From assembly GCF_007197755.1 (NCBI RefSeq), contig NZ_CP041636.1, forward strand, positions 62,001 to 126,000: DNA of 64,000 bases, in the 5' to 3' direction. The notes under the pieces are model-generated. The model saw only the letters and a list, made by a program, of their open reading frames with translations, was not told where the DNA came from and ran no database searches. The translations under genes and the position numbers were made by a program. This stretch comes from Ferrovibrio terrae. GTDB taxonomy: Bacteria; Pseudomonadota; Alphaproteobacteria; Ferrovibrionales; Ferrovibrionaceae. This document shows positions 51,200 to 55,372 of this stretch, piece by piece; position 1 is the first letter of the stretch; every line of letters starts with the position of its first letter.

Positions 51200-52357
51200 G
51201 TGAAACTCTTCGCGGCTTACCGCCTTTTATTCAGCATGATGGAAATCCGCGAAGCTTTTACCCTCTTGATCGACGAACTGAAATGGATGCCGGACTGGGC
51301 GGCCAGCCTGATCATCCTCGGCGTCGCCCCTTTCCTGTCCAACCTGCTGCATCGCCTGTTGTTCCGCTTCGTCACCAACTGGGTGGCGCATATGGACCTG
51401 CTCTGGCGGGCTCTGGTAGCGCGCACCGAAGGCCCGACGCGGCTTGGTTTCCTGATCGCCGGACTCAGCCTGGCTGCCAGCATTGCGCCGCTGCCGCCGG
51501 GCTGGGGCGAGATCGTGCGGCAGGTGCTGTCGGTCGGCTTCATCGCGCTGCTGGGCTGGATGGCGCTGACCGCCTTCCATGTCTGGATGGTGGTGCATCT
51601 GCGCCGCTTCAAGCTGGATACCGCCGACAACCTGCTGGCACGCAAGCATGTGACACAAACCAGGATGCTGCAGCGCGTGATGAACGTGCTGATCATCGTG
51701 ATCACCGCTTCGATCGCGCTGATGACCTTCGACAGCGTCCGGCAATACGGTGTCTCGCTGCTCGCCTCGGCCGGCGCGGCCGGTCTGATTGTCGGCCTGG
51801 CGCTGCAGCCGGTGCTGAAAAACCTGATCGCCGGCATCCAGCTCGCCATCACCCAGCCGATCCGCATCGACGATGCCCTGATCGTCGAGAATGAGTGGGG
51901 CAATGTCGAGGAGATCACCTCGACCTATGTGGTCGTGCGGCTGTGGGACTGGCGCCGGCTGATTTTGCCGCTCAGCTATTTCATCGAAAAGCCGTTCCAG
52001 AACTGGACGCGCGACAATGCCGACCTGATCGGCACTGTGATGCTGTATCTCGACCATACCGCGCCGGTCGAGGCGATCCGGGCCAGGACCCAGGAGATTC
52101 TCGGCGCGTCGCCGTTATGGGACAAACGGGTGCTGGCGGTGCAGGTGACCGATTTCAAGCAAACGACAATGGAAGTGCGTATCCTGGCCAGCGCCGGTTC
52201 GGCGCCGCGCGCCTTTGATCTGCGCTGCGAAATCCGCGAGAAGATCATCGCCTTCCTGCAGCAGGAGCATCCGCATGCCCTGCCACGCTTCCGCACCGAC
52301 ACACCGCAGGGGGCGTCACCGGATGCGACACCCGGCCCGGCACTACAGTCGCGCTAG
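51200..52357 (+). CDS. MscS-family mechanosensitive channel
   Basis: About 385 aa. Four hydrophobic segments: about 30-50, 75-100, 109-135 and 165-185. The pore-lining TM3 is SLLASAGAAGLIVGLALQPVLKNLIAGIQLAI, followed by the beta domain (IRIDDALIVENEWGNVEEITSTYVVVRLWDWRRLILP) and a C-terminal alpha/beta region. The start is uncertain: GTG at 51200 or one of two ATGs at 51236/51239; no good ribosome-binding site precedes any of them. Releases solutes on hypo-osmotic shock, by family. Its 3' end overlaps the ROK gene by 15 bases, tail to tail. Confidence 0.9.
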   Translation: MKLFAAYRLLFSMMEIREAFTLLIDELKWMPDWAASLIILGVAPFLSNLLHRLLFRFVTNWVAHMDLLWRALVARTEGPTRLGFLIAGLSLAASIAPLPPGWGEIVRQVLSVGFIALLGWMALTAFHVWMVVHLRRFKLDTADNLLARKHVTQTRMLQRVMNVLIIVITASIALMTFDSVRQYGVSLLASAGAAGLIVGLALQPVLKNLIAGIQLAITQPIRIDDALIVENEWGNVEEITSTYVVVRLWDWRRLILPLSYFIEKPFQNWTRDNADLIGTVMLYLDHTAPVEAIRARTQEILGASPLWDKRVLAVQVTDFKQTTMEVRILASAGSAPRAFDLRCEIREKIIAFLQQEHPHALPRFRTDTPQGASPDATPGPALQSR

Positions 52358-53443
52358 GCTTCGGGCTTTATCTGGCAGGTTGGTATAGCTGGCATTGCCC
52401 AGACCGGTACCAATGGTCAGCGCGGCCCAGCGCTTCACGTCGCGCATGCGGAACACCTCGCTCAACCCCTGCACCACGGCATCGTTATGCAGCGCCACGC
52501 TGATGCTGCGTCCGGCGATGCGTGGCATGCGCTCATGCAGGGCTTCGGTCAGATTGAAATCCTCGCCTTCCCAGTTGCCGGGCAGGTTCTGTGCGCCCCG
52601 CTTGATCCAGCCATCGCCGGCGATCACGCCGGGGCAGCCGACGGCGATCACCGGCGCCAGCCGCAGCTTCTTCTTGTCCGCGCGATCCGACAGTTCGCGC
52701 ATCATGCCGCCCAGATGGTCCAGCACCGCCTCGCGTCCCAGCTTTTCATCGCGGTGGCGCCAGTGCAGCAGGCGCTCCACCTTCGCGGTATCACCCAGCC
52801 TGTCCTTGCGCCGGATGGTGACGATACCGCAACGGATATTCGTGCCGCCGATATCGATGGCGACAAAGCCATCATGGTCGCGCATCACATCGGGTGCCAG
52901 CAGCTGCAGGCCGCCGAGCAGCCCGGCCTCGTCGGGATGGTGGCTGAGCGGCACCATCCCGACATCGAGGTCGGCCTGCCGCAACAGCGTAGCGGCACGC
53001 AGGATGGCGATCTCGCCGATCCGGCTGCGCCGCAGCCCGCCGCCGACGACAATGCGCTCCACGCCCTTCCAGGATTGCTGACGCAGGAAGCGCTGCGAGA
53101 CCGCCGCCAGGTTCTGCGCGAATTCCTCGATGGCCCCCTGCACGATGGCGGCGGCGCCGAGGTCGTCGCCGGTCAGGATGGCATCAAGTTCGGATTTCGA
53201 CATGTCGCGCGTCGAGGCCATGGCGGCAGCGCCTTTGGCGTCCTTGCGAATCTCTTCCAGCAGTTTGCGGAAAGCGCGGCCGCTGGCCTTGTCGCCGACG
53301 AAACCCTCGGCATCGCGCAGTTCGAGATTGTAGCTATCGACATGCACATGCGGCAGGTCGGCGGCGCCATGATAGGGCAGCGCCACTGCTTCGGGTTCGC
53401 GACCATCGCCGCGCGTCTGCTGTCTTGCCGTGGAAGCCGCCAC
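52343..53443 (-). CDS. ROK-family sugar-kinase-like protein with circularly permuted domain order
   Basis: 366 aa. Motifs run in an order shifted from normal ROK proteins: VGGG at 133-136 in ERIVVGGGLRR and the Ala/Gly-rich end DEAGLLGGLQL come first; then the phosphate-1 loop AIDIGGTN (195-202), CPG (270-272), HNDAVVQGLSEV with the likely catalytic Asp321, and the adenosine loop GTGLGN (345-350) close to the C-terminus. Normal ROK proteins start with the DxGGT loop and end with the GGG region. All catalytic motifs are retained, so activity is plausible; the substrate may be a sugar. The CxCGxxGC zinc motif is absent. Confidence 0.8.
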   Translation of the reverse strand: MAASTARQQTRGDGREPEAVALPYHGAADLPHVHVDSYNLELRDAEGFVGDKASGRAFRKLLEEIRKDAKGAAAMASTRDMSKSELDAILTGDDLGAAAIVQGAIEEFAQNLAAVSQRFLRQQSWKGVERIVVGGGLRRSRIGEIAILRAATLLRQADLDVGMVPLSHHPDEAGLLGGLQLLAPDVMRDHDGFVAIDIGGTNIRCGIVTIRRKDRLGDTAKVERLLHWRHRDEKLGREAVLDHLGGMMRELSDRADKKKLRLAPVIAVGCPGVIAGDGWIKRGAQNLPGNWEGEDFNLTEALHERMPRIAGRSISVALHNDAVVQGLSEVFRMRDVKRWAALTIGTGLGNASYTNLPDKARSLARL

Positions 53444-53488
53444 ATCGCCCTCGCAATCCGCCGGGCGCGGAATGCGGCCAGCGAAGCG

Positions 53489-53824
53489 TTAACGCTCGAT
53501 GCGGGCCAGCAGTGCCATCAGGATATAGGCGATCAGGGCAAAGCCGAAGCCGGGCAGCAGGATATTGCTGACGACAAAGCCCCAGTCGACACCGCAGGTG
53601 GTGGGAATGCCGCTGCCGCGGCTCATGTCGATCGGGATATTGCCCTGCGCGGCCGGCACCGGGCGGCACAGGCCCATCGGCTCGTAGCCATGGGTGCGCA
53701 GCAGCAGGGTACCATACAGCAGCACCGGCAGGCCGAGGCCGGCCACCAGGCTGGTCACGATCCGGCCACCAATGCTGCGGGGACGAATCAGGCGGGATAG
53801 GTGCGACAGCACATCTGTCTCCAC
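53489..53824 (-). CDS. Small two-helix membrane protein, unknown function
   Basis: 111 aa. Hydrophobic helices at about 24-42 (VTSLVAGLGLPVLLYGTLLL) and 84-106 (VVSNILLPGFGFALIAYILMALLA) enclose a loop of about 40 residues with two Cys (C53, C77) that could pair if the loop is periplasmic. I do not recognise a family. It lies between the ROK gene and the AAA/APH gene on the same strand, with gaps of about 45 and 50 bases. Confidence 0.65.
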   Translation of the reverse strand: METDVLSHLSRLIRPRSIGGRIVTSLVAGLGLPVLLYGTLLLRTHGYEPMGLCRPVPAAQGNIPIDMSRGSGIPTTCGVDWGFVVSNILLPGFGFALIAYILMALLARIER

Positions 53825-53875: not shown

Positions 53876-55372
53876 TCAGCCGACCGGCAGCGCAGCCCGT
53901 GCCCGCGCCAGCGTTGCAGTCCGGTCGCCGGCTGCATCGACGGCGCTCCAGGCGTGCTCGACCTCCGATGGCGGCTGCAGATGCTCAAGCTGCCAGTGCA
54001 CCACGGCGGCGGTGGCATCGGAAGCATCGCCCTCTCGGCCGGCAACGCGACGAATCAACACCTCGCGGGGTGCCTCGAGCCAGAGGCCGCCGAACGCGAC
54101 GCTGCAGCTTTTGGCAGCGGCGGCTACCGCCGCGCGCTCGTCCAGCCGGCCAAAGACGGCATCCAGCACGACGCTGCTGCCGGCCTGCAGCAGGCGTTCC
54201 GCGCCATCCAGCAGGGCAGCATATGTCTGCCGGCTGGCCTCTGCAGTATAGCTTTCGGGCGGCAGCCGCTGCGTCAGCGCCCGGCCCTGCAGCTGCTTGC
54301 GCAGCACATCGCTGCGCAGCACCACCGCGCCCCAGGGATAACCACCAAGTGCGGCCGCCAGCTCGCGCGCCACCGTGGTTTTGCCGGTACCGGAATAGCC
54401 GCCCACCGCCACCAGACGCGCGCCTTCGGATCGCAGCGCACGCTGCGCCAGTGCCAGATAGCCGCGCGCGTCCTGCCGCCCCGCCGGCGTCATCGCGGCG
54501 ATATGGCAGCGAATGGCAGCGCGCAGCGCGACATAGAGCGGCAGCAGCGGCAGGCCGTCATAGTCACCGCTGGCTTCGAGATAGCGATTCAGTGCGCGAT
54601 TGGCGAGATCGGTGCAGCCATGATGCAGCAGGTCCATCAGCAGGAAGGCGAGATCATACAGCGTGTCGATCTCGGCCAGGCCGTCATCGAATTCCAGACA
54701 GTCGAACAGCGTCGGCCTGTCCTCGATCAGGGCGATGTTGCGCAGATGCAGGTCGCCATGGCCATGCCGCATGCGGCCTGCCGCCTTGCGCGTGGCCAGC
54801 AGCGGCCGCTGGCGCTCAAACTCGGTCTGCAACGCCGCACGGAACGCGGCCAACTCGGCATCGGACAGGCAATCCGGCGCGCGACGCTCGAAGGCAGCAT
54901 CGTTGAATGCGAGTGTGCGGGTGACGGTGTCTGTCGCCTCGGCATCGACTGTTTCGGCTTGCGCATGGAACGCCGCGATGGTGTCGGCCAGCATCTCGAT
55001 CAGTGCCGCGCCCAGCTTTCCCGCCGCCGCAAGATGGTCGAAGGTCGCATCGGACGGAAAGCGCCGCATCTCGATCAGCCATTCCACCGGCTCGCCCTGC
55101 CCAACGAAGCTGAGCTGGCCGGAGGCATCGCGACAGACCGCGCGGCAGCCAAGATAAAGCTCGGGCGCCGTGCGCCGGTTCAGCTCGACCTCGCGTTCGC
55201 AGGCGGCGCGGCGCTGCTGCAGGGTTGCGAAATCGAGATACGGCAGCGTAAGTGCCTTTTTCAGCTTCCAGGCGCGGTCGCCGCTCAGGAAAATGCGCGA
55301 GACATGGGTTTCCGCCACCTGCAGGGGCGGGTCGAACAGCCGGTCGATATCTGTCGGATTTGGGTCCGTCAT
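53876..55372 (-). CDS. Fusion of aminoglycoside-phosphotransferase-like kinase and AAA/zeta-like P-loop ATPase
   Basis: 498 aa. The N-terminal 310 residues have an APH/choline-kinase-like fold: HVSRIFLSGDRAWKLKKAL (ATP lobe), the Brenner motif HGDLHLRN near 216-223 and CLEFDDGLAEIDTLYDLAFL (DFG equivalent). The C-terminal 180 residues are a P-loop kinase domain with GGYSGTGKTTVARELA near 322-337. The pair is a known domain architecture, annotated as a bifunctional aminoglycoside phosphotransferase/ATP-binding protein; the substrate is not known, and resistance should not be inferred. Confidence 0.9.
   Translation of the reverse strand: MTDPNPTDIDRLFDPPLQVAETHVSRIFLSGDRAWKLKKALTLPYLDFATLQQRRAACEREVELNRRTAPELYLGCRAVCRDASGQLSFVGQGEPVEWLIEMRRFPSDATFDHLAAAGKLGAALIEMLADTIAAFHAQAETVDAEATDTVTRTLAFNDAAFERRAPDCLSDAELAAFRAALQTEFERQRPLLATRKAAGRMRHGHGDLHLRNIALIEDRPTLFDCLEFDDGLAEIDTLYDLAFLLMDLLHHGCTDLANRALNRYLEASGDYDGLPLLPLYVALRAAIRCHIAAMTPAGRQDARGYLALAQRALRSEGARLVAVGGYSGTGKTTVARELAAALGGYPWGAVVLRSDVLRKQLQGRALTQRLPPESYTAEASRQTYAALLDGAERLLQAGSSVVLDAVFGRLDERAAVAAAAKSCSVAFGGLWLEAPREVLIRRVAGREGDASDATAAVVHWQLEHLQPPSEVEHAWSAVDAAGDRTATLARARAALPVG

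Follow-up and report, generated by a model that had tools for sequence, protein, structure and literature searches.

What kind of protein is made when the motifs of a ROK kinase stand in the wrong order along the chain? The question is raised by a gene at 52343-53443, minus strand, of a 64,000-nucleotide stretch of Ferrovibrio terrae DNA (contig NZ_CP041636.1, positions 62,001 to 126,000; hereafter the window), which an initial annotation had described as a circularly permuted ROK kinase. We read its product as a member of the ROK branch of ASKHA sugar kinases that was circularly permuted in nature, and as a predicted kinase, with a probability of roughly 0.77.

The open reading frame runs for 366 amino acids from a predicted GTG start, and residue numbers below are those of this protein (AlphaFold (AF2) model number plus 20). 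Both the frame and the motifs VGGG (133-136), DIGGT (197-201), CPG (270-272), HND (319-321) and GTGLGN (345-350) lie where the initial annotation had put them. Start codons were picked by script as the nearest one upstream of a conserved His, and the 355-361 amino acids of the seven annotated copies agree with this choice. The Pfam ROK model (PF00480) matches residues 194-352 only, that is, profile positions 2-138 of 294, at 37.8 bits (curated score 22.9 bits) and E 2.1e-9; PHROGs gave no match. The same genome also holds an ordinary-order ROK gene at 3223867-3224754. A first round of searches yielded 47 loci, the window's own copy included, with 43 distinct proteins and four repeats of others; PF00480 matches 42 of the 43 at E <= 0.01. 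The order of the halves is reversed in all 47 loci and all 43 distinct proteins. An assembly artefact or a frameshift that reordered one gene, a possibility also raised in the initial annotation, would have to recur in all these loci, which come from several genera, while 203 of 205 plasmid records with a match cover at least 80% of the query at a single place; we give this explanation practically no weight.

The evidence that carries the permutation is a comparison of the family profile (43 proteins) with a profile of canonical ROK sequences. The latter was built from six E. coli sequences and 25 alphaproteobacterial ones, all 25 belonging to a single Mak-like group (31 in total), with loci collected by tblastn (an earlier regular expression caught 7 of 30); the NagC row was shortened by the locus end, Mlc and NagC were front-trimmed, and L072, L073, L075, L076 and L077 were left out. 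In native order, family residues 193-357 aligned to ROK positions 3-142 (Prob 95.0) and residues 82-187 to ROK positions 195-291 (Prob 77.2). With the halves swapped, a single collinear match extended over ROK 3-291 (Prob 97.7, score 90.9). The first half alone scored 43.5 against the ROK profile, while the best of 30 column shuffles reached 19.07 and reversed columns 17.3. Against single E. coli ROK sequences it scored 30.2 with Mak 201-301, 24.5 with NanK 205-287 and 22.4 with NagK 164-299; controls (Glk, Ppx and three unrelated proteins) gave 10.9-19.3. The old termini had been thought to be joined at about residues 180-195, and the joint indeed lies there: 19 residues (178-196) separate D[DE]xGLxG from DxGGT in all 42 measurable proteins.

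Structure models point the same way. AF2, run on the 43 natural sequences, gave a predicted local distance difference test score (pLDDT) of 88 and a predicted template modelling score (pTM) of 0.88. Among ROK N-terminal halves, the second half was best matched by 2yhy (Z 12.4, 147 residues, root-mean-square deviation (rmsd) 2.0 Å), and in VIA it matched 1woq with Z 11.0 over 145 residues at 2.1 Å. The first half, modelled alone (pLDDT 79), was matched best in VIA by residues 124-300 of 3r8e, a putative sugar kinase (Z 8.1, 137 residues, rmsd 5.1 Å), followed in rows 2 and 3 by 5nck and 6q26; 2gup 136-286 was matched with Z 7.5 over 131 residues at 5.5 Å. Judged by their titles, ROK-type or bacterial sugar kinases fill eight of the 11 highest rows, a count in which we assume 2ap1 to belong, and pantothenate kinases the other three. 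Structure prediction had been proposed as a check on the initial annotation, and in it the halves match ROK halves in swapped order, the first less strongly. Along the model, strand 13-18 leads and the chain closes with the PHOSPHATE-2 hairpin (model strands 318-324 and 328-335); by our own lobe assignment, strand 13-18 would belong to the same lobe as the hairpin, and the modelled strand order would show the cut. Judged by the profile alignment, the models and the common order of the 43 distinct proteins, the circular permutation is real, as had been proposed.

Sequence and model alike put the break after the PHOSPHATE-2 loop (GTGLGN) and ahead of the point where canonical proteins have ExGH. 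Canonical proteins keep 18 residues between GTGxG and ExGH (16 in one of 29), and the new ends fall in or near that stretch. GTGLGN had been called an adenosine loop; its position stands but the name does not, since we take it to be the PHOSPHATE 2 loop of ROK proteins and the GGG of the other half to be the ADENOSINE motif. The names PHOSPHATE 1, PHOSPHATE 2 and ADENOSINE are those used for the ASKHA fold in the accessible part of PMC1079889. All three motifs and the catalytic Asp are present in 43 of 43 proteins, with D197, G199, G200, N320, D321, GTGLG and GGG invariant; further invariant residues are Y38, G47, F48, G50, D51 and S54 (Table 1).

Table 1. Parts and motifs of the permuted gene, in window coordinates, with residues of the 366-residue protein
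Feature	Position	Strand	Remarks
Whole open reading frame, circularly permuted ROK-type protein	52343..53443	-	366 amino acids; 3' end shares 15 bases with convergent MscS-type gene 51200-52357
Residues 25-188, counterpart of canonical ROK C-terminal half, comes first	52880..53371	-	Profile match and structure of the half alone
H25-G26 near new N-terminus, just past break point	53366..53371	-	His in 43/43; Gly in 42/43, Ala in one
GGG 134-136, ADENOSINE-type motif	53036..53044	-	Invariant
Residues 171-177 (DEAGLLG), counterpart of canonical D.GLxGA end	52913..52933	-	D171, L175, G177 invariant
Residues 178-196, joint of old C- and N-termini	52856..52912	-	19 residues in 42/42 measurable proteins
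Residues 193-356, counterpart of canonical ROK N-terminal half, comes second	52376..52867	-	Pfam, profile and structure
DIGGT 197-201, PHOSPHATE 1 loop	52841..52855	-	D197, G199, G200 invariant
CPG 270-272	52628..52636	-	Invariant
HND 319-321, with presumed catalytic base D321	52481..52489	-	Invariant
GTGLGN 345-350, PHOSPHATE 2 loop	52394..52411	-	Invariant; chain ends 8-32 residues past GTGLG (43 proteins)

The results that weigh against a permuted ROK kinase concern the first half, the sugar site and the surroundings of the gene. Swapping the halves brought no Pfam ROK gain in three proteins (37.8 to 38.1, 31.9 to 31.9 and 27.4 to 28.4 bits), and a fourth had no ROK match in either order; it is for this reason that a profile-profile comparison was needed to show the permutation. 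Two first halves searched alone in Pfam had no ROK match. With single sequences, the first half scored 20.4 against AlsK, barely over the best control (Ppx, 19.3), and 15.7 against Mlc, inside the control range. Foldseek with the first half alone gave nothing better than E 0.045, and its VIA Z of 6-8 is common to pantothenate kinases, with large rmsd. Given these middling Z values and the Foldseek result, the ROK assignment of this half is carried by the sequence profile, and the structure agrees. A ROK N-terminal domain, truncated and attached behind an unrelated one, would account for the confinement of Pfam ROK to residues 194-352 and for the two unmatched first halves. However, shuffles come nowhere near the score of the first half against the C-terminal third of the ROK profile; modelled alone, this half matches the same part of ROK-type structures, and its GGG, D171, L175 and G177 are invariant. 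We consider such a fusion very unlikely; the related possibility, named in the initial annotation, that residues 1-190 form an unrelated domain is contradicted by the profile match to the ROK C-terminal part and also by structure.

At the sugar site, the permuted proteins depart from their canonical relatives. ExGH is a sugar-binding motif; it occurs in 30 of 31 canonical but 1 of 43 permuted proteins when the pattern is sought anywhere in the chain, and the CxCGxxGCxE zinc motif in 28 of 31 versus none of 43, both of which argue against an ordinary hexose kinase. The ROK signature, which covers the GTGxG to ExGH region and for which we used what we take to be the form of PS01125, is found in 29 of 31 versus 0 of 43. 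Thus the earlier statement that all key motifs survive does not hold. The register of ExGH is uncertain: by eye it falls at residues 29-32 (29 acidic in 27/43, 32 His in 4/43), while the profile alignment places it at about 23-26. As a speculation, the invariant H25, which adjoins the profile-placed site, may have replaced ExGH. The surroundings offer no neighbour that recurs widely across families and no conserved operon partner, and no site resembling the EcfG promoter considered below lies within 300 bases upstream of the window gene or of three congeneric copies.

Many ROK proteins are repressors. This background, together with the loss of ExGH and the zinc motif and the lack of a widely conserved metabolic neighbour, would suit a catalytically dead, ROK-like sensor or regulator that is no kinase. 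Yet none of the 43 proteins departs from the catalytic and phosphate-binding motifs, and Pfam shows no DNA-binding domain in the window protein or across the family table; we hold a dead sensor to be unlikely. A permuted polyphosphate-dependent glucokinase or glucomannokinase is a further candidate, because the best match of the window protein among PDB sequences is the polyphosphate/ATP-glucomannokinase 1woq (E 5.1e-4) and the NCBIfam polyphosphate-glucose phosphotransferase model reaches 19.4 bits (cut-off 250). Both matches are weak, however, and limited to the half that is common to ROK kinases, and the NCBIfam allose kinase model scores higher, at 22.5 bits (cut-off 253), leaving an enzyme of this specificity decidedly improbable.

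Returning to the permuted kinase, its ATP side is intact and its sugar side looks rebuilt, from which we infer that the kinase is active but differs in substrate or in binding mode. With the phosphate loops, the catalytic Asp and GGG invariant in 43 of 43 proteins, an active kinase with an altered substrate pocket is to be expected; as the break removed or rebuilt the ExGH side, the substrate would probably not be bound as in ordinary ROK hexokinases. In the mechanism that we propose, the 19-residue linker came to join the old termini, and sequence and model show the new ones to have opened within the second RNase H-like domain, past the PHOSPHATE-2 hairpin and before the ExGH place. Going by the invariant residues, the chain would form the usual ATP-binding cleft between two lobes and would use the gamma phosphate of ATP to phosphorylate a hydroxyl group on a small sugar or polyol; D321 would be the likely general base. 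To judge from promoter sequence, the gene would in most of the alphaproteobacterial loci sampled outside Ferrovibrio probably belong to the EcfG general stress regulon; in Ferrovibrio it is more likely co-transcribed with an upstream gene for a membrane-protein-like product of 111 amino acids.

The EcfG sigma factor drives the alphaproteobacterial general stress response from GGAAC-N16-CGTT according to the accessible parts of PMC7083833 and PMC3892343, the latter of which describes EcfG as exclusive to alphaproteobacteria; the same part of PMC7083833 names the box variants GCAAC, TGTT, CATT and GGTT. In a first scan, the motif was present in 11 of 42 non-Comamonadaceae loci (shuffles expect 0.14) versus 0 of 32 Comamonadaceae. 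The spacer allowed was 15-17, wider than the N16 of PMC7083833. Within 300 bases upstream, the strict motif was found in 11 of 37 alphaproteobacterial loci versus 6 of 279 other genes with free upstream sequence in the same loci. The variant motif, a pattern widened after the upstream sequences had been read, was found within 200 bases upstream in 27 of 37 versus 23 of 281 other genes, in a sample whose loci are not independent (several share a genus and two a genome) and whose control genes come from our own gene-calling script. It was absent from all 37 copies outside the alphaproteobacteria, which serve as a negative control because EcfG is exclusive to that class, and from 10 of the 37 alphaproteobacterial loci, the window included.

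These 37 loci are the window, L011-L014, L016, L125-L129 and L132-L161 without L141, L142, L146 and L150. L128, whose record is labelled Betaproteobacteria (UNVERIFIED_ORG), carries the variant motif and was placed with the alphaproteobacteria because its neighbourhood resembles that of Shinella; counted otherwise, the figures become 26/36 versus 1/38. L131 was assigned to Comamonadaceae by its neighbours. Control patterns within 200 bases gave, for the alphaproteobacterial loci, 0/37 (backwards), 1/37 (spacer 25-27), 0/37 (spacer 6-8) and 3/37 (boxes swapped), and spacer 6-8 gave 3/37 for the others. Beyond the 37, the strict motif is also present in Sinorhizobium meliloti and S. medicae; in Ak57 and ml29 it ends 53 bases short of the annotated start. 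Nine loci (L132, L134-L136, L138-L140, L160, L161), Bradyrhizobium-like at a guess, have a common box G(C/A)AAC-N16-NGTT (CATT in L140) with a conserved GG(T/C)TCCC in the spacer. The window's genome has 60 sites for the strict motif versus 109 for the backwards pattern; with no overall enrichment, single EcfG-type sites there mean little. Two such sites, each perhaps due to chance, precede the Pfam match of otsB by about 150 bases (G000:C1:1248612) and the genome's best EcfG-like sigma match by about 70 (G000:C1:1372850).

The carriers of the family are proteobacteria from soil and from plant-associated settings, and within Ferrovibrio it is patchy. Matches occurred in 7 of 41 genomes searched, F. 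terrae included. A scan of named genomes, made with patterns from the window protein only, gave 40 loci in Ferrovibrio, Reyranella and relatives, Variovorax, Xenophilus, Pseudorhodoferax, Pseudacidovorax, Polaromonas and others, while a search with the family profile covered Pseudomonadota. In a sample of 398 genomes of that phylum, 22 held a member, all at E <= 1.9e-133; 35 other genomes matched at E of at least 3.1e-7 and only within profile positions 154-359, the old N-terminal half, with nothing in the gap between the two groups. These weaker matches look as ordinary ROK proteins would. Members were found in 11 of 289 alphaproteobacteria and in 4 of 10 Ferrovibrio genomes, the window's own included; the congeneric copies are identical in sequence to those of named Ferrovibrio records. 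The plasmid matches are mostly from Rhizobium (111) and Sinorhizobium (79), and the annotation among the 25 of 205 listed is 'ROK family protein' or none. The initial annotation had pointed to similar proteins in other alphaproteobacteria; they are found there, but are not confined to the class, as Comamonadaceae have copies too. Genomes G499 and G483 (loci L133, L134 and L137) have the permuted gene in two copies each, and in G483 a short piece matching profile positions 12-48, which may be a relic of duplication, sits some 4 kb away from one of them. The copy on S. meliloti R14 pSymB (L124, 7001-8045) appears as two tblastn pieces with no listed gene; the Ak57 gene is annotated and the frame of strain 1021 is open. 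The S. meliloti tag SM_b20472 was rejected as the permuted gene, being arcB2.

Against three congeneric copies, the ratio of nonsynonymous to synonymous substitution rates (dN/dS) was 0.083, 0.083 and 0.14, which counts in favour of the main reading. A tree built on the half common to both forms placed 13 permuted proteins (of the 43) in one group apart from 15 canonical rows, with support 94/91 and long-branch warnings; Mlc and L121 were left out for want of the pattern. The tree is in keeping with a single origin of the permuted form. A fuller account, in which one ROK (ASKHA) permutation spread across alphaproteobacteria and Comamonadaceae, severed the signature, discarded the ExGH clamp and yielded a stress-induced kinase with a new substrate, annotated merely 'ROK family protein', is tentative, and we would put it a little short of even odds.

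Neighbouring genes were called by codon-usage scoring. The permuted gene starts 45 bases past the same-strand, 111-amino-acid, membrane-protein-like open reading frame (53489-53824), which has no Pfam match at E 0.001. Just upstream on the minus strand, 53876-55372 encodes a 498-amino-acid protein with a C-terminal AAA_33 kinase-like domain. A plus-strand open reading frame of 437 amino acids (52487-53800) runs antisense through the permuted gene and was treated as mechanical, like other long antisense frames there. The trehalose-phosphatase gene otsB adjoins the permuted gene divergently on one R. leguminosarum plasmid, one Shinella plasmid, the record Roseateles sp. XES5 and L113, and in none of the rest of 129 loci, a set that includes loci lacking the permuted gene and many with short flanks; the adjoining loci (L113, L125, L128, L129) are Rhizobiaceae-type records. 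A ferritin-like protein, annotated so in L127, lies within 6 kb in four loci. Other stress or osmotic neighbours (betaine-type transporter, hemerythrin, MscS-type channel, NAGGN peptidase) vary by group and may be there by chance.

With natural circular permutants one can examine which connections a fold requires. In this family the cut is close to where nucleotide and sugar bind in a much-studied kinase fold, and it is conserved in alphaproteobacteria and Comamonadaceae, which allows a direct comparison with ordinary ROK enzymes in catalysis, hinge motion and substrate choice. The EcfG-type promoters add a physiological lead, stress, for the predicted enzyme. In the plasmid records listed, the permutation is hidden by the annotation 'ROK family protein', though over half of the Pfam model is unmatched. 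The initial annotation knew of no published description, and we found none in the open-licence literature of PubMed Central, with supplements and preprints outside this scope; the accessible part of PMC1079889 treats circular permutation inside kinase fold groups generally, with no mention of ROK.

Among known systems, the closest are the E. coli ROK proteins NagK, NanK, Mak and AlsK (PF00480), to which both halves are homologous. With the ROK family the permuted proteins share DxGGT, a CPG-like region, the ND catalytic pair, GTGxG, GGG and D.GLxG; they differ in the reversed halves and in the absence of the ROK signature and CxCGxxGCxE from 43 of 43 and of ExGH from 42 of 43. E. coli NanK itself has AGHIGH, with His for Glu, at the ExGH place, but keeps the zinc motif. 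The likeness to the Arthrobacter polyphosphate/ATP-glucomannokinase (1woq) extends over the old N-terminal half only, and 1woq has the canonical order. So have the N-acetylmannosamine kinases 2yhy, 5nck and 6q26, the first a structural match of the second half and the other two of the first. With actin, Hsp70, CoaX, FtsA and PilM, the permuted model aligns from residue 8-12 to residue 315-338 at Z of about 9 and 4-13% identity, an alignment over most of the model that probably arises because one of two similar domains has moved before the other.

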